From Armatimonadota bacterium (GTDB lineage: Bacteria; Armatimonadota; UBA5829; DTLH01), in contig JACPPP010000169.1 in the NCBI GenBank assembly GCA_016190935.1, forward strand, positions 1-50,788: a DNA stretch of 50,788 nt, read 5' to 3'. The notes beneath the pieces were generated by a model that did no database searches, was not told where the DNA came from, and worked only from the letters and a program-made list of their open reading frames with translations. Below are positions 13,064 through 50,561 of the stretch, piece by piece (position 1 is the first letter of the stretch; each line of letters opens with the position of its first letter). A program made the translations under genes and the position numbers.

Positions 13064-15562
13064 TTACCTCTTGCCGGCTTGAATCATTCTATACACCAAC
13101 CCACCCGGCTTGCACGGGGCCGAAATGTCCTGGCCGAGAACAGCGGCTGGGGCGCCCCAGAGGCACATGATCATATAGTAATCCGTGCCCAGCCCCGGGC
13201 TTCCGGTTTCTGCGTTCAAGGCCTGTCGTCCATCCCAGGTGTAGGCAAACCTGCACGAGTAGACTTCCTGACATTTTCTAAGAAGATCCAGCCCGAACTC
13301 CCTCTGTCCTTCATACATGTAGGCCATGGCAAGATAGTAGACGGTGAAATTTACATAGTTGTAAGTTCCGTATCCGCCTATGTCTTTGATGGCTGTGCCT
13401 TCGGGGCTCACATAGTTGGGAGGGATGCCCAAGTCGCCCACTGTGCAGCCTTTGTCCTTGATCGTCTGCAGCACTGTGGCGACGCGATCTTCCGGGAATG
13501 CTCCCGCCAAACCATGCGAACGGGCAAAATACTGGCCGTCCAACTGGATGGTGAATATCGCATCTCTGCGCCGGCCTGTCTCAGGTTCGTGATAACAGAG
13601 GTAGTAGCTGCCATTCCATAGATACTGCTCGAGAGCATCGGCCCCGGCCTTGAGCACCGCATCGAGATTCTTTGCATATTCCACATCTCTCATCTTCTCA
13701 GCCCACCGGCGCATCATCCTCGCCTGTGCCATGCGGAGACCACCTGCGTGTGAGACATAGCCGTAATATGGCAGGTCCTCGAACCATTCCGTATCCTCCG
13801 GGCCTTCACCGGTGTCGGTATTCTGTGTAGGCATAGCAGCGATCTGCGAGAGTCCGTAGTTGGGCCGCAGGTTCATCGTCCATTCCATATTCCGTTTGGC
13901 CGAGTCATAGAACTCTTTGAAGAACTTGTCATCTTGTGTCACCAGATAGTAGCGGTCAAGCCTTATCATATGATTAGGGCCATTAGTCACAGACTGCCAG
14001 CCCCGACCAGGTTCCACTAACTCCCAGTAACCTGTGCCACAGGCTATTCCGTCAGCAAACCTGGCACAACAGCCGCCAAGATTCCACGGCGGGCGTCCGT
14101 CCGGGAATTGGTAAGCCTTTACTGCTCGTAAAGTCGAGCGTTCCAACTCTGGGAATAAATACACCAGTGGAAGAGTCCCGACAGCGCTGTTTGGAGACGT
14201 GTCCATCTGAGAGCAGCCTCGTGGGGACTCATTGAGCGCGTAGATGCCGTCTTCCGGCTTGCACCAATCGCCGATAGGAGGTTTGGCCTGAGCCCAGATG
14301 CCAGTCCTTGTTATCATATGCAGGTTGTTTATCAGGGAATCTGCCAGCCAACCAGGCAGCTCGGGCGAGTTATAAACCTCCTCCTGCCACCGAATAATAC
14401 GCTTGAGCAGTTTCTGGTGGTCCTTCACTAGACGCTTTGCTACAGCCACAGCATCAGGATAGTACTTTGCGTACATATGGGTGTAGCTGTTTCCGCCAGT
14501 GTCGGGCCGTCCCCCTCCATTCCACTCCGGTGCATACCATGCAAGCACATATCGGACTACCTTCTCCTCCCTCGGCTTCAGGTCGAAGTCCACAGCAAGA
14601 GAAGCGCCACCAGTCTCTGGCGCGGTATTGGGAAGTCTATTCTGGATACTACTCCACTTCCTGCCGTCCGTGCCGAGTTCCCCTCCCGTTCTGATCTTGT
14701 CGTCGCCTATCACTGCCAGCACATAGCTCATCTTCCAGTTGAGGTCGTTAACCCACACTCCTGCAGGAGTTCCCGACAGCGCCTTGCGCACTATGTTGTG
14801 CGATGGGAGATTGGGACGGCTCGGATTCGGGGCGCCAACCCATACCGGCCCCTTCCGGTCCCGTTTAGTCTTGTGCGAGTCAAATCCGGGAAAGCTGAAA
14901 GCAATTGTGCCCGTATGCCTGGATTGTGTATGATTTCTCAGACGCACCTCGAAAACCGCGCCGGGAATATTCGAGTCAGCCACGTCTCCAGGGATGAAAG
15001 GCGCCCAAGCACGGAGTCCTACCGAGACCGGGGCATCCGTCTGATACTCCAGATCAGCAATAGGATAGTGCCCCCAATAGTCTATCGACCGCGCCTTCTC
15101 CACCCCTTCGAGCGCCAGATCCGGGCCGAATTCCGAAGGCTCGCGGCCTGTCCCAATGTAGTTCTTGGTCTGACCTGTTGTTAGGACCCACGTTCTGCCG
15201 CCAACGCTTATGCCCAGGATAGGAGTGTTGATCGGGCCGCCCCGAGGCGTCAGGTGATTAAAGATCGAGCTAAGACCCAGAGTGCCTGCCGTCTCCAGGT
15301 CCAAACAACCCGTGGCAACGCCACCGAGGGGCATTCCAGACGGAGGACGAGGATCACCCCTGTAGATGATGCCCGTTACCGGTCTGGTATAACCCACCGC
15401 GTTGAACTCTGACCATTTCGCCGCAGGCAGTCCGGCAGGAAACAGTGTCGCGCCCACGGCGTGGCTGCTGACGCAGACTCCGCCCACCAAAACGACAACG
15501 ACCGCTCGTAAGAACTGCTTTCCAAAAATATTTCGTAGTCTAAGAATCCTCATTTTCATCAT
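13064..15562 (-). CDS. Secreted GH116-like glycoside hydrolase (GBA2_N + DUF608 architecture), paralog 1
   Basis: Signal peptide; GMPLGGVATGCLDLETAGTLGLSSIFNHLTPRGG; NESPRGCSQMDTSPNSAVGTLPLVYLFPELE. Aligns end to end with four other ORFs in the window. Confidence 0.8.
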   Translation of the reverse strand: MMKMRILRLRNIFGKQFLRAVVVVLVGGVCVSSHAVGATLFPAGLPAAKWSEFNAVGYTRPVTGIIYRGDPRPPSGMPLGGVATGCLDLETAGTLGLSSIFNHLTPRGGPINTPILGISVGGRTWVLTTGQTKNYIGTGREPSEFGPDLALEGVEKARSIDYWGHYPIADLEYQTDAPVSVGLRAWAPFIPGDVADSNIPGAVFEVRLRNHTQSRHTGTIAFSFPGFDSHKTKRDRKGPVWVGAPNPSRPNLPSHNIVRKALSGTPAGVWVNDLNWKMSYVLAVIGDDKIRTGGELGTDGRKWSSIQNRLPNTAPETGGASLAVDFDLKPREEKVVRYVLAWYAPEWNGGGRPDTGGNSYTHMYAKYYPDAVAVAKRLVKDHQKLLKRIIRWQEEVYNSPELPGWLADSLINNLHMITRTGIWAQAKPPIGDWCKPEDGIYALNESPRGCSQMDTSPNSAVGTLPLVYLFPELERSTLRAVKAYQFPDGRPPWNLGGCCARFADGIACGTGYWELVEPGRGWQSVTNGPNHMIRLDRYYLVTQDDKFFKEFYDSAKRNMEWTMNLRPNYGLSQIAAMPTQNTDTGEGPEDTEWFEDLPYYGYVSHAGGLRMAQARMMRRWAEKMRDVEYAKNLDAVLKAGADALEQYLWNGSYYLCYHEPETGRRRDAIFTIQLDGQYFARSHGLAGAFPEDRVATVLQTIKDKGCTVGDLGIPPNYVSPEGTAIKDIGGYGTYNYVNFTVYYLAMAYMYEGQREFGLDLLRKCQEVYSCRFAYTWDGRQALNAETGSPGLGTDYYMIMCLWGAPAAVLGQDISAPCKPGGLVYRMIQAGKR

Positions 15563-15585
15563 TTCCTTTCCTTAGGCGCCTCAGT

Positions 15586-16398
15586 TTATGACTGCCGTGT
15601 TATGCTGAAGTCAATTCCATTGAGGCCAGCCAATGTTGCGGACGGATCCCAATAAAATCCGACGCAGATCCTGTCGCCTTGCGACACCGAGATGTTGCGT
15701 AATTTGGAAGCGTCAGATCCCAGTATCTCCGCAAAAGTCGCAGGATTGCTCGAATCACAGTTATCTTCCCAGAGAGGAACTACGAAATCGGCAAAGATGA
15801 CTTCATCGGCCGCACCAATACCATTTGAAGCCCTGTCTATCCAAAGCCGGACTCGCGTCCGCCGTTTGTCGGTGTCCCAATACTGCCCTGACTTCCATCT
15901 CGCAGTCCAGACTCCGCCCGAAACGCTGACCGTCATAGGCTCCGGCGCGGTCCAGACGGCTGCGGTCATCACTTCCTTACCTTTTTTCGCATCCGGGCAG
16001 GTGGCCGCCGCTACCCTGCCTAACGGCCAATCATATTCAGTTCGGTCTATATTCCCCGGAATGTTGCCGCCGCCAACGTTCTTGCCCATCATCGGCATTC
16101 GAGTTGTCGGTGAATCGCCAAGCCACCACCCTTCAATGCCGAATGCGCCGCTCCATCGGTTTGAATGAGTAAAGCGCATGGCTCTGTTGAATGCTCTCCA
16201 ACTCCAGTCGGGGTTGAACCCCACGGAATAAACACCCCATGCGCTGTCCGGGCCGAAGGGTATCCCGCTCAGAGTCTTTCCTTCTAGGCTCCAATCGGCC
16301 GCCATGTCCCACTTTTGGACAGCCTGGGCCGGCGCCGGGCCAATCACGACGGCCAGAACTATGGCTGCTTTCACCATGAGTCGCAGTCTTTGCCTCAT
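15586..16398 (-). CDS. Secreted protein of an unrecognised family, copy 1 (next to a GH116-like gene)
   Basis: Signal peptide; highly similar to 36852..37652 (EGKTLSGIPFGPDSAWGVYSV, KRRTRVRLWIDRASNGIGAADEVIFADFVVPLW). Confidence 0.75.
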   Translation of the reverse strand: MRQRLRLMVKAAIVLAVVIGPAPAQAVQKWDMAADWSLEGKTLSGIPFGPDSAWGVYSVGFNPDWSWRAFNRAMRFTHSNRWSGAFGIEGWWLGDSPTTRMPMMGKNVGGGNIPGNIDRTEYDWPLGRVAAATCPDAKKGKEVMTAAVWTAPEPMTVSVSGGVWTARWKSGQYWDTDKRRTRVRLWIDRASNGIGAADEVIFADFVVPLWEDNCDSSNPATFAEILGSDASKLRNISVSQGDRICVGFYWDPSATLAGLNGIDFSITRQS

Positions 16399-16457: not shown

Positions 16458-18350
16458 TTACGGGAAATACGGAAAGTGATTTCCCGATGGACTTACCTTA
16501 ACGACATAGTTGCCCCGCCAGTGGACTGTGAAAGTCTCAGGGTGCCGGGTCTTCACGCGTTCCTTTGTGACACGCTCCTTAACCGGGAAACTAACTTCGA
16601 TTATATCCCCCTTTGCCACACTGCCAAGAGCCACGTATTGGCCCGCCTTGTCAAGATGGTCCTCCGCGCTGATTTCCCTGCCGGCGACGGTAAAGGACAT
16701 CTCCTTAGGCTTCAGACAGGTTGGCACACGCACGAATACCCTGGCATCCCGCCGGAGTTTGATTTCCGACTGGCCTGAGACCGGGAGTCTTGTTTTCATC
16801 TCTACGTGAGGTGAGGCGCGGTTTATGAAGTAATTTATCCTTACCTGACCGTTCGTAGAATGAATCGCGTCGCGCCAGCCGGAGTAGAGGCCACGAACGC
16901 CCGCATAATGGCAGCAGGCCGCGAGATCCAACTCCAGGTTCCCTTGCTCATTGGTCCGAACCAGATCCTCCGGAATATGGCTCGCAGGCCAGGCGCCGTC
17001 GAACCTCCGAGCCGTGCCCAACTGCTCCTCCACGTCGCCTTTATACTGTCTTGCAAGGAACTCCAGCAATCTCGGTGTAATCAAGATTTGCGAGCGTGCG
17101 ATTGTGTTAACAGTCATTGCCTCCACATCGTCGTGCAGGTTGACCCAGTGGCGAAAATCAGGAGCCAAGTCGGCGCATGAGGCCATTGCCTCCGCCAGTT
17201 CTATCATATCCGCTGTGCAGCAGGTCTCGGTATCGTCACTCAGCAGTCCAAGCCCTATTCGTTCAGGACCCCAGCCAACAAGACTGGCGCGGCCCGGATT
17301 GTCTTTAGAGAACATCCATTTGTAAATCTGCCCAACACGGTTTAGGTATCGCCTGGACTCTTCGAGTCGGCCGTGCGCAGCCAGGTAGCGCGAAAGCTTG
17401 ACGACACCTATGAGCGTTGCTGTCTTCGAGTGGTAGTGCCCGACAAATGAACCCTCTGACCCAAACCGGAAATAGCTCTTCACGTTCTCACTCTCAACTA
17501 TATCTCCCTGATGGCCGCCCATCTCACAGTTGGCAAAGCAGATGGCCAGATCAAGCGCCTTGCGGTCATCAGTCAGTTCAACATACATCATCAAAGGTTC
17601 GATGGCCACGCCGGCGCGATTGTAGCAAAAGTAGCTGTCGGGGTAAGGCTTGCCTGGTTTGTCGTTCTCAAAGTCGTCGCTGGGCCACCCTGCATAAGCT
17701 CCCCAGGTTGGGTCCTCGCCCCGAATAGTTGCGAAGCGATCCAGACCTCGGATCATACGGTCGATCCGAGGTCTCAGAAGGCTCCTGTCTTTTGCCGAGA
17801 CCTCATACCAGCGTACCAGCGCCCGGAGGGTCTGGCCCTGGTCCCAGGTGTGATAACGATAAATACCCTTTTCGGTGTCCGAGAGGTCCGGTATGTATAC
17901 CAGCCCGGTCTCGGGATGAAGCAGAGACAGGAGGAACTTGCGCTGGCCCTGCTCGACTTCCAGTCCGGTTGTCTTGTCCCCGGTCATTTCGCGAAGCCAC
18001 GTCCAGGCCAAGACCGCGCGGGCAGTGCAATCACCCAGATCCCATTGCGCGTGAGCTCTCTTTGCCTTGGGCCAAAGCTTGCTGTCGAAGACAGCCCTGT
18101 AGTAGCCTTCGGGGCCTGGTATGCGTCTAGGAGCCTGCGACATGAATCCTTCGAGAGCTCGCCGAGCCCGCGCTGTGAGATCAAGCGGCTGCATGAACTC
18201 CTTCAAATCCACATCGAAACGTTGTGCGTCAGCTTTCTCCTCCGCATTCCGAAGATCTGTAGCTGCCAGCTTCAGCACTCCGGTCACCAACAGAAGAGAT
18301 GTCAGAGCAACGATCGTTCGAATGATACTAGCGTTTCTCATGGTTCGCAC
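16458..18350 (-). CDS. Secreted (alpha/alpha)-barrel glycoside hydrolase, GH127/DUF1680-like
   Basis: YRYHTWDQGQTLRALVRWYE, ETCCTADMIELAEAMA, GQVRINYFINRASPHVEMKTRLPVSGQSEIKLRRDARVFVRVPTCLK. Confidence 0.55.
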   Translation of the reverse strand: MRTMRNASIIRTIVALTSLLLVTGVLKLAATDLRNAEEKADAQRFDVDLKEFMQPLDLTARARRALEGFMSQAPRRIPGPEGYYRAVFDSKLWPKAKRAHAQWDLGDCTARAVLAWTWLREMTGDKTTGLEVEQGQRKFLLSLLHPETGLVYIPDLSDTEKGIYRYHTWDQGQTLRALVRWYEVSAKDRSLLRPRIDRMIRGLDRFATIRGEDPTWGAYAGWPSDDFENDKPGKPYPDSYFCYNRAGVAIEPLMMYVELTDDRKALDLAICFANCEMGGHQGDIVESENVKSYFRFGSEGSFVGHYHSKTATLIGVVKLSRYLAAHGRLEESRRYLNRVGQIYKWMFSKDNPGRASLVGWGPERIGLGLLSDDTETCCTADMIELAEAMASCADLAPDFRHWVNLHDDVEAMTVNTIARSQILITPRLLEFLARQYKGDVEEQLGTARRFDGAWPASHIPEDLVRTNEQGNLELDLAACCHYAGVRGLYSGWRDAIHSTNGQVRINYFINRASPHVEMKTRLPVSGQSEIKLRRDARVFVRVPTCLKPKEMSFTVAGREISAEDHLDKAGQYVALGSVAKGDIIEVSFPVKERVTKERVKTRHPETFTVHWRGNYVVKVSPSGNHFPYFP

Positions 18351-21016
18351 CTCTGGAACTCCGAGTTACCCTGCAGTCTTGAGACCCGGTTCCGGCCTTT
18401 AGTCGCCAGCCGGTAAGTCTTCCCTCGTTGGGTGTCAAACTCGGTCACGCCATCCTTGTAGGAACTTTGAACCTCTCTGCCATTCTGCGTAACCACCAGC
18501 TCCCCTGCGGGATTAAATGATTTCACCCGGCATCGTTCACCCCACAGAGACTTGAGCGTTGCCTCGACGAGTCGCCTGTCTTTCCAACTCATGCCAACTT
18601 CAAACCCGCCCCTGCTTCGGAAGCCTCTGATCTGTCCATCGCCCAGTTCCTTGGGTAGCGCAGGAAGCAGGCGCAGCAGACCTCGACGGTCCTGGAAGAA
18701 CAGTTCACTGACGGCCCCTACTGCCGCGATGTTCGACTCGATCTGCCACAGCCTCTTCTCCTTGAAGAGCTCGTAACTCGGCGAGCCTGGGCGCCAGCCG
18801 CAGAGACTGGAAAAAAGGTTCTGCATAATATGGTCAGCGATGTAGAGGTTGATCTGCTTTATGGCCTCCTCCGGCTCGTAAAGCCGGGCGTGAAGCTGGG
18901 CATCCCAGACCATGGAGAACGCCATTCCGCTGTTCATCCCTGCGGCATGCCGCTTAGCCAGGGCTTTGCGCGCGCCCTCAAGGTATTCAGGTGTGTCCTC
19001 AAGCGTGATACGATCACCAGAACACAAGCCGATCAAATGGGAACGGTGCCTATGGCCTGGGTCTGCTTCCGGATACTCCTCCGTCCACTCAAGAAGCCGG
19101 CCGTCCGGGGCCAGCACCGGCATCGGCACCCTTTGGAGTATCTCAGACCAGACCTTGCGCTTGTCCGCGTCCACGTTCAGTGCCTTGCTAGAGGTTATGG
19201 CGTTCGAGAATACCTCATGTATAAGCTCCAGATCCCAGGTAGCCGCTGTAGCAAGCACATTGAAGCTTGCCCACCAGCGGCCCGAAAAGACTTTGGATTT
19301 GCGTCCGGCAATGGCCATCTCAGGAGAACAGCTCGGACAGGGAACCAACCGGCCTCCCTTCGTCTCTAACAGGTTATCCTCGTAGAATAAGGCAATCTCC
19401 TTGAGGAATGGATACATCTTGTTCTTCAGGAAATCAAGATCGTGAGTGTATTCCCAGTGGCGCCAGAGAAGCTGGGCTATCCAGGCTGCAGCGCCGGTTG
19501 CGAACATACAGTTGCCGTCTGGTCCGCCGATGTCTCTCAGCCCACAGACAATGTTGAAGAACACGCCCCGGCACCCGTAGCGGTCCATCGCGGCAATTCG
19601 CGCCTTAGGCATCATACTAATAACCCAGTCAGCAAGCGGCTCTTTCAGATCGGAGAGATTCACCATGCTGAGCGGCCAATAGGACATCTCAGCGTTCAGG
19701 TCGAAGTGAAGGTCACAATCCCAGGCAGGTCGGCGGTCCTGGTTCCAGATGCCCTGAAGCGTTATTGGACATTTCGGCGGCTCTCCAGCGGGCGCCGGCC
19801 GACCACTTGTGATTGCCAGGTAACGGCCGATGTTGAATAGTTGTTCGACCAAAAGCGCTGAGGCAGCCCCGGTCTTGTGAGCTTGTTCAACTAACTCATC
19901 GGTGGGAATCGGCTCCTGGGCTTTGCCCAGCGATAGCTCCGACCTGCGATAATACCGCTGATGATCCTTTATATGCTCCCTTCGCAGCCTCCCGTAGTCT
20001 GTTGGGGTAGCATTAAGCCTCCTGCGACACCATCCCGCAGGATCATCTCTTGACTCATCATCGGTCGCTATACTGAGCAGAAAGATTATCTCATCCGCCC
20101 CCTCAAAACGGTTTGAGACTCCCGCAGGTTCGGTTGAGCGAGGCTCACCCCAAGCGTGAAGTAGGAATGTGTTGGGCGGGTCCTTAGCTGGCATCTTGCC
20201 GGGCGGAGGCTGATAGATGCTGCGCCCTACACTGACCCTTCCCCCCTTGTTGATCACCCGAAGTACAGATGCGAATCTTATACCCTCCTCCAACCGCCCT
20301 TTCATAACAACTTCTCCAGGAGTCGCGCTCCCTGTCATCACACAGTCTGGATCGAGCAGTCGGGAGAGAGTGATCTCTCCTGTCAGCTTACCTCGCCTGT
20401 TTGCCCTCAGCCGTGTTACCAGCACCTGCGCAGACCAAGAAACAAATGACTCCCGATCGTACCTTACACCGTCCACAATGTAAGATGCATTCGCGATCCC
20501 GGTATCCAGGTCCAGGCTCCGATAGTAGTCAGTAATCTCGCTGTTTTCATTATGTGCCGGATAAATGCCTAGGTCACCTACTGGAACCATAGGGTTAATG
20601 CCGGCAGACTCAAGGTCGAGCTTTAATCCCTGGGCTGCCGCCTGGGTCAGGCATTTCATCAGCATCAAGTCTTGGGCCTCGTCCCATTTGTCCTCAGCAC
20701 AAAGCCGACGGAACTCAGGCATAAGAGATGCGGTGTTGTATTTGCGATAAGAGTAGTACTTTCGCCATAGACGGTCGTGGTTCAGCCCGATCCGCTCGCG
20801 CAGAGGGCCGCCAAGGACCATCCCGCCGATGCGCCCATTGCCGATGGGGTAACCCAAAACCCACTCACCTGCAGGCTTCCGGCTCCAAACCACGTGCCCA
20901 CTCAATGCCTTCTTGCGATCCGGCTGGACCCTGGCGGCGTCCGTCACGGAACATAGCGCCATGACCGACAAAGCCATTGCTGCTACGATTGCATGGAATG
21001 CTGGCTGTTTTCTCAT
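18338..21016 (-). CDS. GH95-family alpha-L-fucosidase-like protein
   Basis: WVLGYPIGNGRIGGMVLGGPLRERIGLNHDRLW; LQGIWNQDRRPAWDCDLHFDLNAEMSYWPLSMVNLSDL; HRHRSHLIGLCSG; LLRLLPALPKELGDGQIRGFRSRGGFEVGMSWKD. Confidence 0.85.
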   Translation of the reverse strand: MRKQPAFHAIVAAMALSVMALCSVTDAARVQPDRKKALSGHVVWSRKPAGEWVLGYPIGNGRIGGMVLGGPLRERIGLNHDRLWRKYYSYRKYNTASLMPEFRRLCAEDKWDEAQDLMLMKCLTQAAAQGLKLDLESAGINPMVPVGDLGIYPAHNENSEITDYYRSLDLDTGIANASYIVDGVRYDRESFVSWSAQVLVTRLRANRRGKLTGEITLSRLLDPDCVMTGSATPGEVVMKGRLEEGIRFASVLRVINKGGRVSVGRSIYQPPPGKMPAKDPPNTFLLHAWGEPRSTEPAGVSNRFEGADEIIFLLSIATDDESRDDPAGWCRRRLNATPTDYGRLRREHIKDHQRYYRRSELSLGKAQEPIPTDELVEQAHKTGAASALLVEQLFNIGRYLAITSGRPAPAGEPPKCPITLQGIWNQDRRPAWDCDLHFDLNAEMSYWPLSMVNLSDLKEPLADWVISMMPKARIAAMDRYGCRGVFFNIVCGLRDIGGPDGNCMFATGAAAWIAQLLWRHWEYTHDLDFLKNKMYPFLKEIALFYEDNLLETKGGRLVPCPSCSPEMAIAGRKSKVFSGRWWASFNVLATAATWDLELIHEVFSNAITSSKALNVDADKRKVWSEILQRVPMPVLAPDGRLLEWTEEYPEADPGHRHRSHLIGLCSGDRITLEDTPEYLEGARKALAKRHAAGMNSGMAFSMVWDAQLHARLYEPEEAIKQINLYIADHIMQNLFSSLCGWRPGSPSYELFKEKRLWQIESNIAAVGAVSELFFQDRRGLLRLLPALPKELGDGQIRGFRSRGGFEVGMSWKDRRLVEATLKSLWGERCRVKSFNPAGELVVTQNGREVQSSYKDGVTEFDTQRGKTYRLATKGRNRVSRLQGNSEFQRCEP

Positions 21017-40400: not shown

Positions 40401-42931
40401 AGGAGTTCCCTCTTTTCAGTCTGAGTGGCCGGTTGTAACGATGCCCTTCCGCGTTGATTTCGTCTGTCGAGACGACCCGCTTTGAGGATTCTGTCCACCA
40501 GCCCGCCGGGTTTGCACGGGTCGGAGAGAACCTTGCCTTCGATCGCCGCAGGCAGCGCCCAAAGCATCATAACCTGGTAGTAGTCACTCGCTACCCCGAC
40601 TCCGTTGTTCTCCCAGCCACGGGTCATAACCGGCATATCCCACTCGTAGCCCTGGTCCAGAATGAGATTGCTGAAGACCTTGTGGGCAACATCCATACCG
40701 ACCTCCGGCTGGCCCTCGTAGATGTACTGCATGGCAAGCATAAGAGCTTCGGCTATGAAGCAGCTATACTCACCGTAGCCGGCTCCTTTGGCGTAGGTCC
40801 CATCCGGGTTGGCAAACGCTACAACTCCACCTTTGCCCAGTGGGACATTGCATTGCTTCACTTTCTCCAGCGCCGTCTTCACACGATCGCGCCGGAATAT
40901 GCCCGGAAGCCCGTGAAAATGCGCGATCCATTCGCCGTCCAACTGGTGTGCAAAGATCAGGTCGCATCTCTTGTCCGTCTCCGGTTCCCAGAATAGTAGA
41001 TAGTTGTCGCCATTCCACATCTTCGTTTCGAGTGACTTCTTCCCGGCTGCGATCCACTCATCACACTGTCTGACAAACTCCTTGTCTCCGACCTGCTCGG
41101 CCATTCTTCTCGCTATCTCGATCTGCGCCAGATGGATGCCGCCGACGTGTGCAACCATTCCGTAGAAGCCCGGATAAGTGGCCTCGAACCAATGGGCCGA
41201 GAGGTTTTCGGTGTATTTGTTCTTGCTCTGCATGCTGATTATCCGATCACCGATCTCATACTCCGGCCTCAGGTTGACCGTGAAGACGGCGTTCCTTTTA
41301 ACGGAATCATAGAACTCACGGACGAACGCATCATCACCCCAGCACATCCGGTAGCGATCTACCATGGCCGCGAAGCAGATACCATTGAGCGAGGTTTGGA
41401 CTCCGTGGTTGTGGTTCGCGAAGTCAGTTCGCGCCCAGCCCCCGAAGGTCCACGGGACATTTCCATTTTCCTCCATATAGCCTTTGTAGCCTCGCAGTGT
41501 TGAGAGAGCCAGCTTGGGAAAGAAATAGACTATGGGCAGGTTGCCGTAGAAGCTGCAAGGGATACATTCGATCTGCGGATTGTCCCGCGGGCTCTCGCTC
41601 ATTCCAAAGAGTCCGTCTTCCGGCTTCACCCAGCTCGGCATCGGTGGTTTGGCCTGATCCCACATGCCACATTCAGTGACCATATACAAATTGCTGATTA
41701 GCGAGACCCTGAGCCAGGCCGGGAGCTTCTTCTCCGCATAGACCACCTGCTGCCAGGCAAGTATGCGCGCAAGCAGCGACTTGTGGTTCCTTGCGAGCGA
41801 CTCGGCAGCGGACTGAGCGGCCGGGTAGTGTTTGGCATACATATGGGTGTAGGTGTGGCCGATGTTGGACCAGTTGTACCCTCCACCCTTCCAGGTCGGC
41901 GCGCTCCAACTGAGCACAAACCGGACTACCCGGCTCTTGCCCGCTCCAAGGGAGAAATCGACCGCGGCGGACGCCCCCGCACTGCTCTGCCCGGACTCAG
42001 GCAGGGACGATGCAATCTGCGCCCAAGACTGGCCGTCCGCGCCAAGCTCCCCACCGGTTCGCAGTTTCTCCTTGCCGATCACTCCGAGCGCGTACGAGGC
42101 GAGATCAGACGTGATGGAGAGGCCGCTGAAGGGTCCACTTATCTTATGCCGCTCGAACTCGCTCGTGCCGGCTTCTTTCTCCGTCGGGCCTGGGAATGAG
42201 AAAGCTATGGTCCCGCGCTGCGCGGAGCCTGTTGTGTTCCTCAAACGAACCTCGAAAACTATTCCCGGAATCATAGATGATGCCACGTCGCCCGGTATAA
42301 ACGGCGACCAGGCGCGCAGACCGACGGAGACCGGCGCATCTGTCTCAAATTCGATGTCCGCAACAGGATAATGTCCCCAGTAATGGATCTCTTTCGCTGT
42401 CCGAACGCCCTCCAGCTTGAGATCGAGCAACAGTGGATTCACAAAATCTTGATATAAGTCCTTGGTGTAAGGCCCGTTGTGAAGCTGGAAGTCGCCCCTG
42501 TCCTTCTTAGGCTGCTTGTCGCAGAGAACCCACGTCCTGCCGCCAACGCTCAGACCCAGAACCGGCAGATTGACCGGCCCGCGCCGGGGGCTGTCGGTGT
42601 TGAACAGGCTGCAATAACCGAGGAGACCGGTTGTCTCCAGATCGATGCATCCCGTATCAATTCCGCCGAGCGCCATCCCGCAGGTGACTGTGTCCTTGAG
42701 TCGGTAGACCACTCCACATACCGGCTTGGAGAAGCCGTCAGCGCGAAATTCGATCCACTGTCTGCCTGGCAGGTTGGTAGGAAAAAGTGTTTGCTCTGCG
42801 CTGGCACGCCCGACTATCGCCAGCGCCACCATAAGTATCATCGCCAATAGGATAGTTCGATAACTGAGAGGATTCATGTCATTTCTCCAACACTTTGTTT
42901 CATCGCGATGGGGAATGAAGGTTCTCGTCAA
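40397..42931 (-). CDS. Secreted GH116-like glycoside hydrolase, paralog 5 (likely start at MNPLSYRT, ~42877)
   Basis: Close to paralog 2: CGMALGGIDTGCIDLETTGLLGYCSLFNTDSPRRG; FGMSESPRDNPQIECIPCSFYGNLPIVYFF. Confidence 0.8.
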   Translation of the reverse strand: MTRTFIPHRDETKCWRNDMNPLSYRTILLAMILMVALAIVGRASAEQTLFPTNLPGRQWIEFRADGFSKPVCGVVYRLKDTVTCGMALGGIDTGCIDLETTGLLGYCSLFNTDSPRRGPVNLPVLGLSVGGRTWVLCDKQPKKDRGDFQLHNGPYTKDLYQDFVNPLLLDLKLEGVRTAKEIHYWGHYPVADIEFETDAPVSVGLRAWSPFIPGDVASSMIPGIVFEVRLRNTTGSAQRGTIAFSFPGPTEKEAGTSEFERHKISGPFSGLSITSDLASYALGVIGKEKLRTGGELGADGQSWAQIASSLPESGQSSAGASAAVDFSLGAGKSRVVRFVLSWSAPTWKGGGYNWSNIGHTYTHMYAKHYPAAQSAAESLARNHKSLLARILAWQQVVYAEKKLPAWLRVSLISNLYMVTECGMWDQAKPPMPSWVKPEDGLFGMSESPRDNPQIECIPCSFYGNLPIVYFFPKLALSTLRGYKGYMEENGNVPWTFGGWARTDFANHNHGVQTSLNGICFAAMVDRYRMCWGDDAFVREFYDSVKRNAVFTVNLRPEYEIGDRIISMQSKNKYTENLSAHWFEATYPGFYGMVAHVGGIHLAQIEIARRMAEQVGDKEFVRQCDEWIAAGKKSLETKMWNGDNYLLFWEPETDKRCDLIFAHQLDGEWIAHFHGLPGIFRRDRVKTALEKVKQCNVPLGKGGVVAFANPDGTYAKGAGYGEYSCFIAEALMLAMQYIYEGQPEVGMDVAHKVFSNLILDQGYEWDMPVMTRGWENNGVGVASDYYQVMMLWALPAAIEGKVLSDPCKPGGLVDRILKAGRLDRRNQRGRASLQPATQTEKRELL

Positions 42932-43005: not shown

Positions 43006-44769
43006 TCAACCCTTAGGGGTAAAGAGTTGGAATTCCCGGATGCCAGGGTGTCCATCGCCTCCGACCGCTGAGACGACCAGTCGAAAAAAGATTGCTTTCA
43101 CCGGAGAGAACTTCATTAAACACTTGTAACCGATCTGATTCCCTTGCCTAATCGTTCGCCACTGACCGCCATCTTTGTACTGCAGTTCGAACTTGCTGAT
43201 CCAGTGGCGATCAGGGGTATCGATAGAACTGAGCAGCGCGCTGTCGATCAGCGTGGGACTGCCAATGTCAACCTCCAGAGTCAACGGCAGTTTGCTCCCG
43301 TCGCCGACCCAAATTGTGCGATAATCATCATCTACGGCGTTCGCTGGACTATGAGTTAGTCCGGCAAAGGCAGATCCAATAGACACAGGAATGTTATCCG
43401 GGAGGGTTGACGAGGCAGTGACGGTCTTACCAAATGCCACTGAACCAGAGCAGTGAGGAACCAGAGGCGAAATGTCGGATGCCTGACCATTCAGTGTTAA
43501 CGTCACAACAGTATCGAGGTCATTTCTATCCCCCTCGGGCACTCGAATCTCTATTCCCTGCGGGCCTTGTTTTACGTCCACTCTTCCGCCTGCCAGCACT
43601 CGGCTGCTGACAATCTTTTTCGGAAGCTGGGACAATCTCATTGGGTCATTACCGTCCCAATCCAGTATGTGAACGTAGATAGTATTACCTTTGTGGGTGC
43701 TGGATATCCACGGTGACGGCATAAAGGGTCCGCCCCGTGTGCCATAGATGCTTTCGCCGTTCTTCCCGATCCAATCACCGATGGCTTTCAGTGTGTCTGC
43801 CTGAACCTGTTCGATCTGGCCGTTTGGCATGGGGCTGATATTGAGCAGCAGATTGCCATTGCCGCCCGCACAGCGGATCAGGGTGAGTATACATTCCTTG
43901 GCCGACATCTGGTTCGCGCTCGGCTTCCAAGCCCATTGCTCACCCATACTCATGCAGCTCTCCCAGTCGGGCGTGATTCGGAAGCCTCCGATTGTTCGCT
44001 CAGGTGTGATAAAATCTCCGGGCAGGCCGCCTCCCCGGTCATTGAGGATTATCCCTGGCTGGAGCGTTCGGATCAGCTTGTAAAGGTTGTACGTGTCATA
44101 GGTTTTCGGGTCGCTGACAGGCCGTTCACAGTCGAACCACATGATGTCCACCCTGCCGTATTTTGTGAGAAGTTCGCGCACCTGGTCCATCATGTATTTC
44201 ACGTATCTGGCGTGCTCCGGCCTGCAGTGGTCCGGGTGATACCAGTCCGGCACCGAGTAGTAAAGGCCGAACTTCAAGCCGGCCTCGTGACAAGCCTCAG
44301 CCAGTTCCGCCACTATATCACGTTTGAACGGAGAGTTGGTGATGTTGTAGTCTGTGGTACTCGTGTCCCACATGCAGAAGCCATCATGGTGTTTGGCTGT
44401 AAAGACGATATATTTCTGCCCGGCCGCCTTGGCCAGCGCAACCCATTCTCTGGCGTTGAACTTGTAGGGGTCGAACCCTTTGTAGAGGTTGTCATAGACA
44501 TGCTGAGGAATGATTCCGTTGTCGGGTATGCTTCCTCTTTCCCCCTTGCGCGACCAACTGATCTCCGTTCCCACCATCGTACACGGGCCCCAATGGATGA
44601 ACATACCGAACTTCGCGTCGCGCCACCATGTCATATCTTCGGCTTTGGCGCGCAAGTATGGCTCGTACTCCTTGGCGTTCTGACCATAGGCAAGGCTGGC
44701 ACAGTTTAGAAGAATCGTAATAAAGGCGAATCCACAAGCGAATTGGCGGAGCAATGTGGAGTTTCTCAT
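43006..44769 (-). CDS. Secreted GH29 alpha-L-fucosidase with C-terminal F5/8-type (CBM32-like) domain (likely start MRNSTLLRQ; the open frame extends to 44862)
   Basis: WWRDAKFGMFIHWGP; AKHHDGFCMWDTSTTDYN; RVDIMWFDCERP (nucleophile Asp motif); discoidin-like C-terminus. Confidence 0.9.
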   Translation of the reverse strand: MRNSTLLRQFACGFAFITILLNCASLAYGQNAKEYEPYLRAKAEDMTWWRDAKFGMFIHWGPCTMVGTEISWSRKGERGSIPDNGIIPQHVYDNLYKGFDPYKFNAREWVALAKAAGQKYIVFTAKHHDGFCMWDTSTTDYNITNSPFKRDIVAELAEACHEAGLKFGLYYSVPDWYHPDHCRPEHARYVKYMMDQVRELLTKYGRVDIMWFDCERPVSDPKTYDTYNLYKLIRTLQPGIILNDRGGGLPGDFITPERTIGGFRITPDWESCMSMGEQWAWKPSANQMSAKECILTLIRCAGGNGNLLLNISPMPNGQIEQVQADTLKAIGDWIGKNGESIYGTRGGPFMPSPWISSTHKGNTIYVHILDWDGNDPMRLSQLPKKIVSSRVLAGGRVDVKQGPQGIEIRVPEGDRNDLDTVVTLTLNGQASDISPLVPHCSGSVAFGKTVTASSTLPDNIPVSIGSAFAGLTHSPANAVDDDYRTIWVGDGSKLPLTLEVDIGSPTLIDSALLSSIDTPDRHWISKFELQYKDGGQWRTIRQGNQIGYKCLMKFSPVKAIFFRLVVSAVGGDGHPGIREFQLFTPKG

Positions 44770-44815
44770 TCTTGGACCTCCTGTCAATCTCTGGATAAAG
44801 TCTAAAAGCTGAGCG

Positions 44816-44852
44816 CGCAATGAGCAATGTGCAATGAGCAATGAGCTATGAG
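44816..44852. repeat. Five tandem heptads GCAATGA-type
   Basis: GCAATGA GCAATGT GCAATGA GCAATGA GCTATGA. Confidence 0.85.
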
Positions 44853-44865
44853 TATTTTGCATTCC

Positions 44866-46620
44866 TCATCGTTCATCGCTCATATTCGGCGCAAATAGCT
44901 GAATCTCGCGTACGCCAGGGACACCGGAGCATTCGAGTATGACCAGCCTGACGAACCGAGTCTTGATGGGGCGGAACTTCACGTGCCACTTGTAGCCGAC
45001 GACTGTTGGCGGGTTAAATGGCACCTTCCACTGGCGGCCAACCTCCTTGCCCTCGATAGCCCTCCATTCGTCGCCGTCCATATATTCAAGCTCAAACTTC
45101 TTGATGAAATGAAAGTCACAGTCGTCCGAGCTAACGAGTGCCCTCTCGGTCGTTATTGGCTCGCCGAGATCTACTTCGAGTGTCAGCGGCAGTTTGGCGG
45201 GATCGCCGTGCCATATAGTCTCAAAATCGTCATCGACCACGTAGCCGGGATTGCCTTCGCGAGTGCCGGAGGCGGTGATCTTCTTCCCGGCTGCGACCGA
45301 GCCCGAGCGAAAGGGTACCCGCAGGGCTAGTTCGGAGGCCGGGCCATCCAGTGTTAGGGCAACTATTGTGTCGATCTCCCGCCGATACTGCGTCGGCACC
45401 CGAATCTCGATCCCTTCCGACATCTGCTTCACATCCACTTCGCCCCCGGTAAGTAATGAGCTATCGACGATCTTCTTTTCGATTGGAGTCAGCCTGATTG
45501 GGCCGTCGCCTTCCCAGTCCAGGATATGAAGGTAGACCGTGTTTCCCCTGTGGGTGCTGACCATCCAGGGTGAAGGTTTGAATGGTCCTCCTCTGGTGCC
45601 GTAGATGCTTTGCCCGAATTGGCGTGTCCAAGCGCCCATCTCCTTAAGCCGTTCGATTTGCGGTTGCTCAATGGCGCCATTTGGCATAGGGCTGACGTTG
45701 AAGAGGAGGTTTCCATCTCCACCGGCACAGCAGAGCAGGAAATGCATGGAATCAATGAAAGACATTACAGGGCTTCCGGGTGTCCACGCCCACAGCCATC
45801 TCATCTTCACCGCGCTTTCCCACGGCCTGACATTGTCGAATCGACCGACTTGCCCTTCAGGAGTGGAAAAATCACCATTGAGGCCAGCGCCACGGCTGTT
45901 GATGAGTATCCCGGGCTGCAGCGTACGGGCCAGCTTATAAACATTGTACATATCGTAAAGCTGCGGTCCCGGCACGGCTTGGACGCTGTCGAACCACAGG
46001 ATATCCACCCTGCCGTAATTGGTGAGAAGCTCGCGAAGTTGGTCGAGCATGTATTGATTGTACCTCGCTTGATTCTCAGTTCTGTGGTCCGGGTGGTACC
46101 AGTCCGTAATGGAGTAGTAAACTCCGAACTTCATGCCTTCCTCGTGACACGCCTTCGCCAGTTCCGCCACTATATCACGTTTGAACGGAGAGTTGGTGAT
46201 ATTATAATCCGTTGTCTTGGTGTCCCACATGCAGAAGCCGTCGTGGTGTTTGGTTGTGAAGACGATGTAATTCTGCCCTGCCTCCTTGGCTAGTGCCGCC
46301 CATTCTCTGGCGTTGAAGTTGTAAGGGTCGAACCCCTTGTAGAGGTTGTCATAGACGTGTGTTGGAATTATGCCGTCGTCGGGAACACCGCGCCTTTCTC
46401 CCTTGCGTGACCAACCGATCTCGGTTCCAGCCATCGTACACGGGCCCCAGTGGATGAACATACCGAACTTCGCGTCGCGCCACCAAACCACGTCATCCGG
46501 CTTTGCGTTCAAGTACTGCTTATACTCATCGGGGCTGTCGGCTCGCGCAGGACCGGCATGAGATGTTACAACGAGCGTCACTATCAGTGTAGGGATTATC
46601 AGACTCGCGATTCTGCTCAA
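44866..46620 (-). CDS. Secreted GH29 alpha-L-fucosidase with C-terminal F5/8-type domain, paralog 2
   Basis: WWRDAKFGMFIHWGP; TKHHDGFCMWDTKTTDYN; RVDILWFDSVQ; long near-identical tracts with 43006..44769. Confidence 0.9.
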   Translation of the reverse strand: MSRIASLIIPTLIVTLVVTSHAGPARADSPDEYKQYLNAKPDDVVWWRDAKFGMFIHWGPCTMAGTEIGWSRKGERRGVPDDGIIPTHVYDNLYKGFDPYNFNAREWAALAKEAGQNYIVFTTKHHDGFCMWDTKTTDYNITNSPFKRDIVAELAKACHEEGMKFGVYYSITDWYHPDHRTENQARYNQYMLDQLRELLTNYGRVDILWFDSVQAVPGPQLYDMYNVYKLARTLQPGILINSRGAGLNGDFSTPEGQVGRFDNVRPWESAVKMRWLWAWTPGSPVMSFIDSMHFLLCCAGGDGNLLFNVSPMPNGAIEQPQIERLKEMGAWTRQFGQSIYGTRGGPFKPSPWMVSTHRGNTVYLHILDWEGDGPIRLTPIEKKIVDSSLLTGGEVDVKQMSEGIEIRVPTQYRREIDTIVALTLDGPASELALRVPFRSGSVAAGKKITASGTREGNPGYVVDDDFETIWHGDPAKLPLTLEVDLGEPITTERALVSSDDCDFHFIKKFELEYMDGDEWRAIEGKEVGRQWKVPFNPPTVVGYKWHVKFRPIKTRFVRLVILECSGVPGVREIQLFAPNMSDER

Positions 46621-46654: not shown

Positions 46655-47872
46655 TCATGCCGCCGTTATTTGCCTCATCCGCTCAGCAGCGGCCGCCAGA
46701 GCTTCTTTCACGCTTACCTGCCCGATGAAGGCGGATTGTATTGACATCCAGAGAGCGTCTTCGACTTTGGGATACGATGCGAACTTGGGTGGAATGAGCA
46801 TGTGGTCGCGGACGCTCCTACCCAGTATTTCGAGCCTTTCTGCCTCAATCGATCCCGGTTCACACTCAGCCTTAGCTTGCTGCTGGACTGAAATCCTCGG
46901 GACTATTGTTCCCTGTCTCGACTCCACTAACTGGCATTCCTCACTTGTGAAGAAACGGAGCAGCCGAAGCGCGCCATCCATATCTCTTACGCTCTTTGGG
47001 ATGGCAAATCCGAAGGCGCCGGAATAAATCCACCGCTGACCGGAAGGGCCGACCGGGTAGATGCAGATTCCGAACTTGCCAGCTACTTTGGAGGACTTCG
47101 GGTCCCTGTATCTATAAAATCCGCCAGGCCAGTCGCCCACAATAGCGCATCTCCCTTCGCAGAACAGTGAGGCGACCGCGTCGTAATGCATATTAGGCGT
47201 CTCTTCAGGAGCGGCTTTCAGATGCAGGTAAATACTTTTCAGATAGTACAGCGCCCATTCGCCTTCAGGACTTTCGAGCCCGGGAGTCAGGTCTTTTTTC
47301 CAAAGCTCTCCTCCCGCCATAGCCAGGAGCTCGTAGAAGGAACCGAACAAGCCGGAATACCGTCCTGGGAAGGAGTAGCCGTAGAGTTCGGGGCCACGGG
47401 CAAAATGTGCCGCAATGTCGCGAAGTTCATCCCAGGTCTTAGGCGCGGCGAGATCATAGCCAAACCTGGCTCGAAAGCGAGTGCGTTCTTCAGGGTCTTC
47501 AAACAGGTCTTTGCGGTAGTAGATAACTTTGACGTCGGTGTTCCTGGGCAACTGGTACAGCCGGCCTTCGATCCGCATAAGATCAATCGTAGATGGTGTG
47601 AACTGCTCCAACTCGCTATCAGTAAAGTACTCGTCCAGGGGCAGCAGCCACTGGAATTGGGAAGGAGCATACTTCGAGTGTGTAACAATAAGGTCGTAGT
47701 CTCCTCTGCCACTGCCATAAACCTCCGCTATGTGCTCATTCAGTTCCGGATGCGGAGCTTTGAAACCTATATCCACTGTATAGCCTGATTCCTTCCGGAA
47801 CCTGGGAATCTCATCGTAGAGCCTATCGTACATGGGCCCGCCAACCAATGCTACCTTGAGAGTATTCATCAT
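46655..47872 (-). CDS. Family 1 extracellular solute-binding-like protein without a visible signal peptide
   Basis: YDLIVTHSKYAPSQFQWLLPLDEYF; RLYQLPRNTDVKVIYYRKDLFEDP; PKTWDELRDIAAHFA; CAIVGDWPGGFYRY; FFTSEECQ. Confidence 0.8.
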   Translation of the reverse strand: MMNTLKVALVGGPMYDRLYDEIPRFRKESGYTVDIGFKAPHPELNEHIAEVYGSGRGDYDLIVTHSKYAPSQFQWLLPLDEYFTDSELEQFTPSTIDLMRIEGRLYQLPRNTDVKVIYYRKDLFEDPEERTRFRARFGYDLAAPKTWDELRDIAAHFARGPELYGYSFPGRYSGLFGSFYELLAMAGGELWKKDLTPGLESPEGEWALYYLKSIYLHLKAAPEETPNMHYDAVASLFCEGRCAIVGDWPGGFYRYRDPKSSKVAGKFGICIYPVGPSGQRWIYSGAFGFAIPKSVRDMDGALRLLRFFTSEECQLVESRQGTIVPRISVQQQAKAECEPGSIEAERLEILGRSVRDHMLIPPKFASYPKVEDALWMSIQSAFIGQVSVKEALAAAAERMRQITAA

Positions 47873-47874
47873 AA

Positions 47875-48636
47875 TCAGTACCCCAGCGACACCGCTCCGT
47901 CGACAGGAAGAGCAACTCCAGTGACGAACGAAGCATCATCGCCCGCAAGAAAGGCTACCGCCTTGCCGACCTCCTCGACAGTCGCGATCCGCCCAAGTGG
48001 ATGGACAGAGTAGATGTAGTTTCTCGCAGCCTCTGGGTCAGGCTGCTGGTTGAACCAGTCCTCCACAAGGGGAGTCTGCACCCATCCGGGACATACCACA
48101 TTCACCCGCACTCCATAAGGCGCCATATCGAGTGCCATTCCTTTGCTCATGGCCACTATTCCACCCTTGGTCGCCGAGTAGGCAGCAGCCTTGCTCTGGC
48201 CTATGACACCGACCATTGACGACATGTTAACGATGCTGCCTTTAGTCTTGATCAATTCGGGAAGAGCATACTTGCTGCACAAAAAGTAACTCTTGAGGTT
48301 GATACGCTGCACCCTGTCCCACTCCTCTTCCGTTTGGTCAAGAATGTTCTTCGAGATGTGAGTGCCGGCGTTGTTTACCAGGACATTGATCCTGCCGAAA
48401 GCGGCGAGCGTTTCCGTGACCATTCTCTTCACACCTTCAGAGGTAGAGATATCAGCCTCTATGAAGACGGCACTGCCGCCCGCCGTTATCAGATCATCCC
48501 TGGCCGCATTACCAGCCGCTGCATCCCAGTCAACTATGGCTACGGATGCTTTACGTTCACAGAATACCTTAGCGCATCCCTTGCCAATTCCCTTTGCTCC
48601 ACCAGTGATTACCACTACTTTGCCAGTGAAATCCAT
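47875..48636 (-). CDS. Short-chain dehydrogenase/reductase, L-fucose dehydrogenase-like (likely start MDFTGK)
   Basis: VVITGGAKGIGKG; NNAG; SSMVGVIGQSKAAAYSATKG; C-terminal PLGR...EVGKAVAFLAGDDASFVTGVALPVDGAVSLGY. Confidence 0.8.
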   Translation of the reverse strand: MDFTGKVVVITGGAKGIGKGCAKVFCERKASVAIVDWDAAAGNAARDDLITAGGSAVFIEADISTSEGVKRMVTETLAAFGRINVLVNNAGTHISKNILDQTEEEWDRVQRINLKSYFLCSKYALPELIKTKGSIVNMSSMVGVIGQSKAAAYSATKGGIVAMSKGMALDMAPYGVRVNVVCPGWVQTPLVEDWFNQQPDPEAARNYIYSVHPLGRIATVEEVGKAVAFLAGDDASFVTGVALPVDGAVSLGY

Positions 48637-48664
48637 ATGTCTCGACCTCCAGATCTCCAACTAC

Positions 48665-48763: not shown

Positions 48764-49510
48764 TTAGTCCATTATCAAACCACCATTAATATCTACGATC
48801 TCTCCAGTGATGTATTTTGCTGAGTCTGAGGCAAGGAACAAGACTGCCCCAGCGACATCCTCCGGGGTTCCGAACTCGCCGAACGGAACTGCGGCCGCAA
48901 AGGCCGCCTTTGTTTCCTCTCCCCAGGCACTCGTTAGTTCGGTCTCAATTGTGCCGGGACATACTGCGTTGACGCAAATTCTATGCGGAGCTGCGTATCG
49001 TGCCAGTGATTTAGTCAGGCAGATGACGCCGGCTTTCGCGGCGGCGTAGTGGGATCCGGCCACCACGCCACCCAGCTTGCCTGCTGAGGAAGCCATGTTG
49101 ATGATTTTTCCGTAGCCTCGTTCAATCATGCCAGGAAGTACCTCCCTGGACCATAGGAACACGCTCTTGAGGTTGACTGCCAGGAACCTGTCCCATTCCT
49201 CGGAGGAAATGTCCATAACAGTGACCTTCCTGCAGATGCCCGCATTGTTCACCAGGATATCCACACGGCCAAAGGCGCCATTTATCTGGCTGACCGCCGA
49301 TTTGACCTCGGCTTCGACCGAGACGTCTGATTGGACGGCGATGGCGCGTGCTCCGTTTCTCTGTATCTCGCCTGCGGTTGAGCGAGCCGCATCAATGTTG
49401 AGATCGACTATGGCCACATCAGCTTCGCACCGACCGAAAGCAAGAGCTATTGCCCGGCCGATTCCCTGCCCCCCTCCGGTGACTACCGTCACTTTGTCGA
49501 TGAAGTCCAT
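48764..49510 (-). CDS. Short-chain dehydrogenase/reductase, paralog 2 (likely start MDFIDK; the open frame extends to 49543)
   Basis: VTVVTGGGQGIGRAIALAFG; LVNNAGICRKVTV; SSAGKLGGVVAGSHYAAAKAG; ITGEIVDINGGLIMD. Confidence 0.85.
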   Translation of the reverse strand: MDFIDKVTVVTGGGQGIGRAIALAFGRCEADVAIVDLNIDAARSTAGEIQRNGARAIAVQSDVSVEAEVKSAVSQINGAFGRVDILVNNAGICRKVTVMDISSEEWDRFLAVNLKSVFLWSREVLPGMIERGYGKIINMASSAGKLGGVVAGSHYAAAKAGVICLTKSLARYAAPHRICVNAVCPGTIETELTSAWGEETKAAFAAAVPFGEFGTPEDVAGAVLFLASDSAKYITGEIVDINGGLIMD

Positions 49511-49520
49511 TTTCGTATAA

Positions 49521-50561
49521 TCACTTGACGAGAGCGTTGCCATAACCTACTATTGCCGTTGCCGCAACGATGACGGCCATCCCAGCATACATTGTTCGGA
49601 GAGGGCCGCCTTCCGCATTTCGCCACTCTCCGGTTAACACTCCCCATATATTAGAGGCTGCGATACAAAGGCCGATGTATATAGCCCAGCCTGCCGAGCC
49701 CCCGAGTGTGCCCATCATATCGGCCGCCCTTCCATAGATGGTAACGGAGAACATCCAGAGCACAGCCATCAGCGCAGCGAAGATCCAGTGGCTGCCGGCG
49801 CGAGGCTTCGCGTATGTCGACCACGTCCGGTTCTTCGTCAGAAGCGTCGCGCAAAATACTAGATTGACCGCATACCCTCCGAGGAGCGTGAACGCCCAGA
49901 TCGCGTCCGATGCCCCTCCCGCCGATGCTCCGGCGGCTAGCGCCGCTTCTCTAATCCCTCCTCCGAAGGTGAAGGCGAAGTTAAGCATGGCGCTGAAAAG
50001 TCCGGCGAAGACGGCCATTATTAATCCTATCACGAACTTTTTCTTTGAGACAGAGGAGCTAGCAGCCTGTTTTTCGCCTGATCCCGGGTCTTTTTGCGCA
50101 TCTCTTCTGTTTCCCGCGACCGCGGATATCGCGACTCCCACGACCAGGAAAACTACTCCCAGTGTAATCAGCATCCCTCCCGGAGTCGCAAAGACCTGTG
50201 GGCTGGCAGCCATTGGGACCAGGGACCCGACGGCGGTAGTAAGTCCGAGTGCGATGGCATAGGTCAGGCTCATTCCTATGACTGCCAGACTAAGGCCAAA
50301 CAGGACATTCCCTACACCCCATGCCGCCCCAAATATGAAGGTCATCGCAAGAGGCACTGCATTTGTGCTGGCATATACTGCCAACAAGCCCGGCGTCGTG
50401 ATCAGCGCCACACCCCACGGTATAATTATCATCCCTACTGTAGCGAAAACGAGCCAGGTGTTTTCCCAGGCCCATTTGCCCGTCCACTTAAGCGGAAGGC
50501 CGTACGTGCCGAGCATAAGTCCGGCGGCCAGCGCCAGAACGAAACCGAGCCCTGCGTTCAT
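49521..50561 (-). CDS. rhaT: RhaT-type L-rhamnose/6-deoxyhexose:H+ symporter
   Basis: GLMLGTYGLPLKWTGKWAWENTWLVFATVGMIIIPW; AAWGVGNVLFGLSLAVIGMSLTYAIALGLTTAVGSLVP; about ten hydrophobic segments. Confidence 0.85.
   Translation of the reverse strand: MNAGLGFVLALAAGLMLGTYGLPLKWTGKWAWENTWLVFATVGMIIIPWGVALITTPGLLAVYASTNAVPLAMTFIFGAAWGVGNVLFGLSLAVIGMSLTYAIALGLTTAVGSLVPMAASPQVFATPGGMLITLGVVFLVVGVAISAVAGNRRDAQKDPGSGEKQAASSSVSKKKFVIGLIMAVFAGLFSAMLNFAFTFGGGIREAALAAGASAGGASDAIWAFTLLGGYAVNLVFCATLLTKNRTWSTYAKPRAGSHWIFAALMAVLWMFSVTIYGRAADMMGTLGGSAGWAIYIGLCIAASNIWGVLTGEWRNAEGGPLRTMYAGMAVIVAATAIVGYGNALVK

Follow-up and report, generated by a model that had tools for sequence, protein, structure and literature searches.

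A SusCD-free, symporter-associated gene cluster with predicted fucosidase-family, GH116 and GH127-like enzymes in an Armatimonadota genome

The wider rhamnogalacturonan II (RG-II) enzyme set of Bacteroides thetaiotaomicron includes glycoside hydrolases (GH) of the GH95 and GH127 types. The GH141 enzyme BT1002 is also counted among the RG-II enzymes of this species (PMC12786026). In marine Verrucomicrobiota, fucosidases, other glycoside hydrolases, and sulfatases are co-localised in clusters that have no SusCD, and rhaT/fucP proton symporters are found in those genomes (PMC8857213). The fucoidan-degrading Kiritimatiellales also combine sulfatases with fucose-glycan degradation outside Bacteroidota (PMC6388578). 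Here, we describe a gene cluster at positions 13064-50561 of a DNA stretch from an Armatimonadota bacterium (assembly GCA_016190935.1, contig JACPPP010000169.1) that resembles these systems in part. The whole stretch, called the window below, is one complete contig (C109, 1-50788, 50788 bp) of a 3.84 Mb assembly in 366 contigs that is 92% complete.

Like the B. thetaiotaomicron RG-II set, the window holds a GH141 enzyme together with GH95 and GH127-type enzymes, but it lacks SusCD and pectin backbone enzymes and has sulfatases. It shares with the Verrucomicrobiota clusters the co-localised fucosidases, other glycoside hydrolases, and sulfatases in the absence of SusCD. In contrast to them, the window genome has only two sulfatases and no detected rhamnose isomerase RhaA (the search did not extend to rhamnose isomerases of other types), and five GH116 enzymes belong to the cluster; bacterial microcompartment genes were not seen in the window and were not searched for in the genome. 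Kiritimatiellales have hundreds of sulfatases and the anaerobic sulfatase-maturating enzyme (anSME), whereas we find two sulfatases and no anSME in the window genome. An earlier preliminary description of this DNA had called the organisation distinct from the polysaccharide utilization loci of Bacteroidota. This is true, but the SusCD-free layout is already described for Verrucomicrobiota (PMC8857213). The layout is thus known from other bacteria, and what is unusual here is the enzyme variants. In the window, fucosidase genes are clustered with a symporter gene and without SusCD, in a genome that has very few sulfatases. Two of the enzyme groups have specificities that known members do not reveal: GH116 enzymes that lack the glucose-recognition residues tested, and a GH127-like Zn/Cys group missed by current Pfam models.

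With moderate confidence, we read the cluster as encoding secreted enzymes that debranch a fucosylated glycan, mostly by exo-action, before the free sugars are taken up by symport, the joint action of the genes being our inference from their sequences. The exported fucosidase-family enzymes (two GH29, GH95, and GH141) would remove alpha-L-fucosyl-type groups. The Zn/Cys GH127-like enzyme and five GH116 enzymes of a distinct kind would remove beta-linked furanosyl or pyranosyl groups, and the sulfatases and an alkaline-phosphatase-fold hydrolase would take off ester groups. The monosaccharides, most plausibly L-fucose, would enter through a RhaT-family symporter and then be oxidised or isomerised in the cell. 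The fucose targeting and the export of the enzymes proposed in the preliminary description are supported, and rhaT lies close to the fucosidase genes.

Gene content and layout of the cluster

Assigning families with Pfam, with matches far above chance (E-values to 1e-100), we find 21 open reading frames and one GH116 pseudogene at 13064-50561, all on the minus strand. The features are given below in the order of transcription.

49521-50561, minus: RhaT-family sugar/proton symporter, probably the first gene (PF06379, E 1e-34; NCBIfam RhaT 245 bits, cut-off 369; sigma70-like site upstream)
48764-49543, minus: short-chain dehydrogenase/reductase (SDR) oxidoreductase 2 (PF13561, 5e-63)
47875-48660, minus: SDR oxidoreductase 1 (PF13561, 1e-63; L-fucose dehydrogenase model 184 bits, under the cut-off of 300)
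46655-47872, minus: solute-binding-protein (SBP)-like, no signal peptide (PF01547, 4e-30; no N-terminal hydrophobic segment)
44866-46620, minus: GH29 with F5/8 C domain, exported (PF01120, 9e-74; WFD motif)
43006-44862, minus: GH29 with F5/8 C domain, exported (PF01120, 9e-86; alignment to fucosidase 6gn6, E 7e-73)
40397-42931, minus: GH116 enzyme e (nucleophile E446, acid/base position E583)
38481-40400, minus: alkaline-phosphatase-fold hydrolase (phosphodiesterase/metalloenzyme fold), exported (PF01663, 8e-13)
37677-38462, minus: isochorismatase-fold hydrolase, signal-like N-terminus (PF00857, 2e-28)
36852-37652, minus: orphan secreted domain protein SMALL_d, upstream of GH116_d (no Pfam, NCBIfam, or PDB match)
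34236-36821, minus: GH116 enzyme d (Pfam domains, catalytic residues, tree)
30820-33906, minus: GH116 enzyme c, longer, other clade (Pfam domains, catalytic residues, tree)
29295-30776, minus: sulfatase 2, Cys-type (C-G-P-S-R), Tat-like signal (PF00884, 2e-59)
27747-29189, minus: sulfatase 1, Cys-type (C-S-P-S-R), no signal peptide (PF00884, 2e-71)
27238-27720, minus: truncated GH141 duplicate (91% DNA identity over 300 nt)
24713-27139, minus: GH116 enzyme b (sister of e, 70% identical)
23267-24674, minus: GH116 pseudogene (stop, frameshift, central catalytic region missing)
21020-23236, minus: GH141-family beta-helix enzyme (PF21231, 7e-9; profile to BT1002, 5mqp, 6e-34, and to 9rx2, 1e-76)
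18338-21016, minus: GH95-family enzyme (PF22124, 3e-100; 2rdy, E 2e-98)
16458-18350, minus: divergent GH127/GH146-like enzyme with E-x-C and CC Zn/Cys motif (family profile versus structures)
15586-16398, minus: orphan secreted domain protein SMALL_a, upstream of GH116_a (60% identical to SMALL_d)
13064-15562, minus: GH116 enzyme a (in a clade with d and a copy on contig C1)

The inventory of about 20 genes on one strand in the preliminary description is borne out by Pfam for the two GH29, GH95, GH141, five intact GH116, two sulfatases, alkaline-phosphatase-fold hydrolase, two SDRs, and RhaT. It had overlooked the sixth, decayed GH116, the truncated GH141 duplicate, the leaderless solute-binding protein, the signal-bearing isochorismatase-fold hydrolase, and the two SMALL proteins, which are family members of about 266 aa without a Pfam match.

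The enzymes had been taken as secreted or periplasmic, and a simple hydropathy test (not SignalP) agrees: export-like segments lie at the N-terminus of 14 of the 15 intact putative hydrolases and sulfatases, and sulfatase 1 is the one without. The hydrophobic N-terminus is present in all GH enzymes, both SMALL proteins, the alkaline-phosphatase-fold and isochorismatase-fold hydrolases, and sulfatase 2 (with a Tat-like RR motif). Sulfatase 1, the SBP homologue, and the SDRs have no such segment.

Intergenic gaps in the cluster are mostly below 60 bp, the biggest being 329 bp at 33907-34235. Across the whole window, just two sigma70-like sites reach 11 of 12 matching positions, and one of these (50646-50618) lies directly upstream of rhaT on the matching strand. 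It suggests that rhaT is the first gene of the cluster, although a consensus match is no proof.

Fucosidase-family and GH127-like enzymes

Both GH29 copies carry PF01120 (Alpha_L_fucos) and the WFD motif, whose Asp we take to be the nucleophile. The GH95 catalytic residues are an acid Glu and an Asn pair. The catalytic domain of the window GH95 scores 337 bits and retains the Glu of SPE; its N-x-N site reads D-L-N, as in 8zbv. The GH141 protein has both the GH141_M insertion and the beta-helix (PF21231, 36 bits versus a cut-off of 27). Its profile is nearest to 9rx2, a solved beta-helix protein with no stated function, and BT1002 is more distant; the alignment to 5mqp fails ahead of the region of the BT1002 catalytic Asp pair (D523/D564). 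Among the GH141 enzymes that have been characterised are an alpha-L-fucosidase, a xylanase, and endo-fucanases (PMC12786026). Because of this diversity, the role of the window GH141 is not readable from its family.

The protein at 16458-18350 gave no Pfam match even at E 10, and we therefore name it GH127-like rather than GH127. It is 20-37% identical to the members of its own group; 8 of the 12 GH127-like members show weak PF07944 matches, and the window protein shows none. The 12-member profile nevertheless matches the GH127/GH146 structures 6ex6 (E 3.5e-17) and 3wkw (2.5e-10), and E-x-C, CC, and H-x-H are conserved in 12/12 members (E375, C377, C479, C480). The zinc of HypBA1 is bound by three Cys and one Glu, and a Cys residue serves as the nucleophile (PMC10728902). 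Taken together, the conserved motifs, the profile match, and the HypBA1 chemistry make the window protein a likely Cys-nucleophile glycosidase. The Glu plus three Cys zinc site is common to the GH127/GH146 beta-L-arabinofuranosidases HypBA1 and BtGH146, from which the window protein differs in having no Pfam match of its own. The earlier GH127-like call thus stands on the structural profile and the Zn/Cys motif but not on Pfam.

A narrower version of the fucosylated-glycan reading would place the substrate in the plant cell wall, as RG-II side chains, arabinogalactan protein (AGP), or fucosylated xyloglucan, with GH141, GH95, and the GH127-like enzyme acting on side chains and GH116 on beta-linked residues. 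BT1002 acts on RG-II (PMC12786026), and beta-L-arabinofuranosides, the GH127/GH146 substrate, are found in AGPs and RG-II (PMC10850190). A GH42 gene also lies beside another GH116 of the genome. However, the window Pfam hits include no GH78, GH106, GH28, GH2, or polysaccharide lyase (PL) domain, the GH141 is far from BT1002, and the sulfatases are left unexplained. We regard a plant cell-wall substrate as possible, but on the unlikely side.

Cohesion of the cluster and the sulfatases

Four observations weigh against the reading that we favor. The D-L-N of GH95, where 2rdy has N-I-N, weakens any prediction of the specificity of this enzyme. Endo-acting candidates are few, and polymer cleavage must come from GH141 or elsewhere. 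Sulfatase maturation is unaccounted for in the genome. The clusterwide gene order is absent from every relative examined. A rival reading, a collection of independent genes, is favored by the pair of SBP homologue and SDR1, which occurs elsewhere without fucosidases.

On this rival reading, there would be no single unit, and independently acquired glycosidase genes would have grown by duplication and decay and would be separately regulated. The pseudogene, the truncated duplicate, the 329-bp gap, and the lack of conserved order in the relatives seen are all consistent with such a history. The minus-strand run also extends past the cluster through central-metabolism genes to 3173, the gap to ftsY being only 92 bp; orientation alone is therefore no evidence of a unit. 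Against this stand the strong functional coherence and short gaps of the cluster, a second rhaT/GH95-like neighbourhood in the genome, and the SMALL domains beside GH116 and fused to GH141. On balance, independent acquisition appears rather unlikely to us.

A synteny check in relatives had been proposed in the preliminary description. Our SBP and GH127-like searches of 250 genomes of the phylum and our GH116 scan gave no locus of such composition; most loci were only a few kb, so that synteny was tested only locally. One scan of genome contigs returned only three GH116 relatives (Hydrogenedentota, Terriglobia, and Latescibacterota), without synteny.

The decayed GH116 and the truncated GH141 lie on either side of the intact GH116_b, as marks of local duplication and loss. 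The 5′ copy of GH141 persists with 79% protein identity, followed by an internal deletion. On the same strand, 3173-12971 holds succinyl-CoA synthetase, fumarate reductase/succinate dehydrogenase, 2-oxoacid:ferredoxin oxidoreductase subunits, and ftsY.

Both window sulfatases keep the S1 formylglycine motif C/S-x-P-x-R, and no further PF00884 protein was found in the genome. The active site of the formylglycine-generating enzyme (FGE) is a C-x4-C pair. Three FGE-domain proteins are present in the genome, none with this pair, and no anSME scores above cut-off in the 92% complete assembly. The maturase may be encoded in the 8% of the genome that the assembly does not cover, it may belong to a different type, or the sulfatases may stay unmodified. 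The glycan had been described as sulfated; the claim is weak, as the two sulfatases are the only ones in the genome, one of them has no signal peptide, and neither canonical maturase was found.

The same evidence bears on a fucoidan-type locus, in which GH141 would serve as endo-fucanase, the sulfatases would desulfate, and GH29 and GH95 would finish. The co-occurrence of these four families fits, and GH141 members can be endo-fucanases (PMC12786026). However, the cultured fucoidan-growing anaerobes of the Kiritimatiellales carry 521 and 480 sulfatases (PMC6388578) against two here, one of them without a signal peptide, and neither canonical maturase was found, as said above. No GH107- or GH168-type endo-fucanase was seen among the window genes, and a fucan would leave the five GH116 enzymes without an explanation. 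We find a fucoidan locus doubtful. A literature search that combined fucoidan with GH116, GH141, and sulfatase returned no paper.

GH116 enzymes, SMALL domains, and sugar uptake

The N-terminal and catalytic domains of GH116 (PF12215 and PF04685) score above cut-off in five window proteins. The nucleophile is Glu in 21 of 22 aligned copies, including all five of the window, and Asp in the remaining one; the acid/base position is Glu or Asp in 21 of 22. This position is Asp in GH116_c and Glu (WFE) in a, b, d, and e, a conservative change with respect to TxGH116 (E441/D593). We mapped TxGH116 numbering onto the 842-residue PDB chain with a constant shift of 28, which puts D452 and H507 (PMC10509167, PMC11375437), as well as E441 and D593, on the correct letters. 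The window copies share the fold family and the catalytic positions with the beta-glucosidase TxGH116 and the exo-beta-D-arabinofuranosidase ExoMA2 (PMC10509167).

Asp452 and His507 of TxGH116 contact the sugar at subsite -1 (PMC11375437). Neither of these beta-glucosidase residues is found in the window copies: position 452, Asp in TxGH116 and His in ExoMA2, is Pro in GH116 a, b, d, and e and Ala in c, and the stretch bearing His507 is an insertion relative to the window GH116 family, absent from the family profile. Together, these differences make an ordinary beta-glucosidase role unlikely. The nearest solved GH116 members are beta-glucosidases/glucosylceramidases, but the residues at 452 and 507 led us to reject glucosylceramide specificity, and action on glucosylceramide-like or plain beta-glucoside substrates, the case named in the preliminary description as refuting its proposal, seems highly improbable.

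The genome has about 20 GH116 copies. The 19 that we analysed fall into two clades, and relatives from other phyla lie inside one of them; GH116_b and GH116_e are sisters. SMALL_a and SMALL_d are directly upstream of GH116_a and GH116_d, and on C1 a third copy precedes a GH116 that falls in one clade with these two. The ten SMALL matches in the genome include repeats in proteins of more than 1000 aa, one protein that also has a GH141 domain, and one with a PEP-CTERM-like tail; a search of the 250 other genomes of the phylum gave one marginal match. The predicted structure reached a predicted local distance difference test (pLDDT) score of 33 alone, and a pLDDT of 48 with a predicted TM-score (pTM) of 0.53 together with one window paralogue. 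A PDB fold search ranked CBM32 first at a query TM-score of 0.24, a hint of a jelly-roll that we do not use as evidence. We infer that SMALL is an accessory domain, possibly carbohydrate-binding. It is conceivable, and we put this forward tentatively, that the expanded GH116 group and this undescribed secreted domain, beside GH116 and fused to GH141, form a lineage-specific glycan-degradation system.

Proteins of 1000-1600 aa that combine SMALL repeats with CHB_HEX_C/Fn3-assoc are encoded at L015:7314-12212 and 12561-16076 and at L017:1138-4281, one ending in GH141. In the same locus L017, a 53% identical homologue of the isochorismatase-fold hydrolase adjoins a GH141.

Regarding uptake, the window rhaT product passes the Pfam family cut-off and falls below the NCBIfam equivalog cut-off, and it is one of six RhaT-family proteins in the genome. 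Rhamnose import had been proposed earlier. The RhaT-family gene is there, but the missing RhaA, the sub-cut-off score, and the six paralogues weaken the assignment to rhamnose. A genome protein has all three fucose-isomerase domains, far under the FucI equivalog cut-off. With no RhaA and this fucose-isomerase-family protein, L-fucose would be the better guess for the sugar carried.

The absence of SusCD claimed earlier holds: no SusC/SusD pair is among the window Pfam hits (no search for SusD was made across the genome), and a single TonB plug is present in the genome. The claimed lack of an ABC (ATP-binding cassette) permease is true of the contig. However, an SBP homologue is present, sister GH116 loci carry ABC-importer genes, and the contig stops 227 bp past rhaT, so that the absence of transporters covers the sequence up to 50788 only. 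In the same genome, a GH116 locus on C1 has LacI, permease, and ATPase genes, and one on C25 has SBP and permease genes; the organism is thus not dependent on symporters alone. The window SBP homologue starts at the mature fold, with neither a signal peptide nor a lipoprotein signal. Its closest relatives in other families within the phylum, 48-50% identical to it, are likewise leaderless, and one of them neighbors an SDR1 homologue (64% identity). It is probably a cytoplasmic protein that is not part of an importer.

The SBP-SDR pairing (46655-48660) and the missing leader both recur at L086 in a distant family of the phylum; the window SBP homologue is possibly a cytoplasmic sugar-binding protein. 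Sister loci of the window genome (L016, L020, and L092) show GH116 with LacI and an ABC importer, GH116 with SBP/permease and GH42, and RhaT with an SSF symporter and a GH95-like enzyme, the last being the second rhaT neighbourhood. In L020, L022, L023, and L092, several genes for type II pseudopilin-like proteins (GFTLIELLVVIAIIAILAAILFP), whose sequences would be in keeping with Armatimonadota, lie beside glycosidase genes, and some of them are arranged in tandem.

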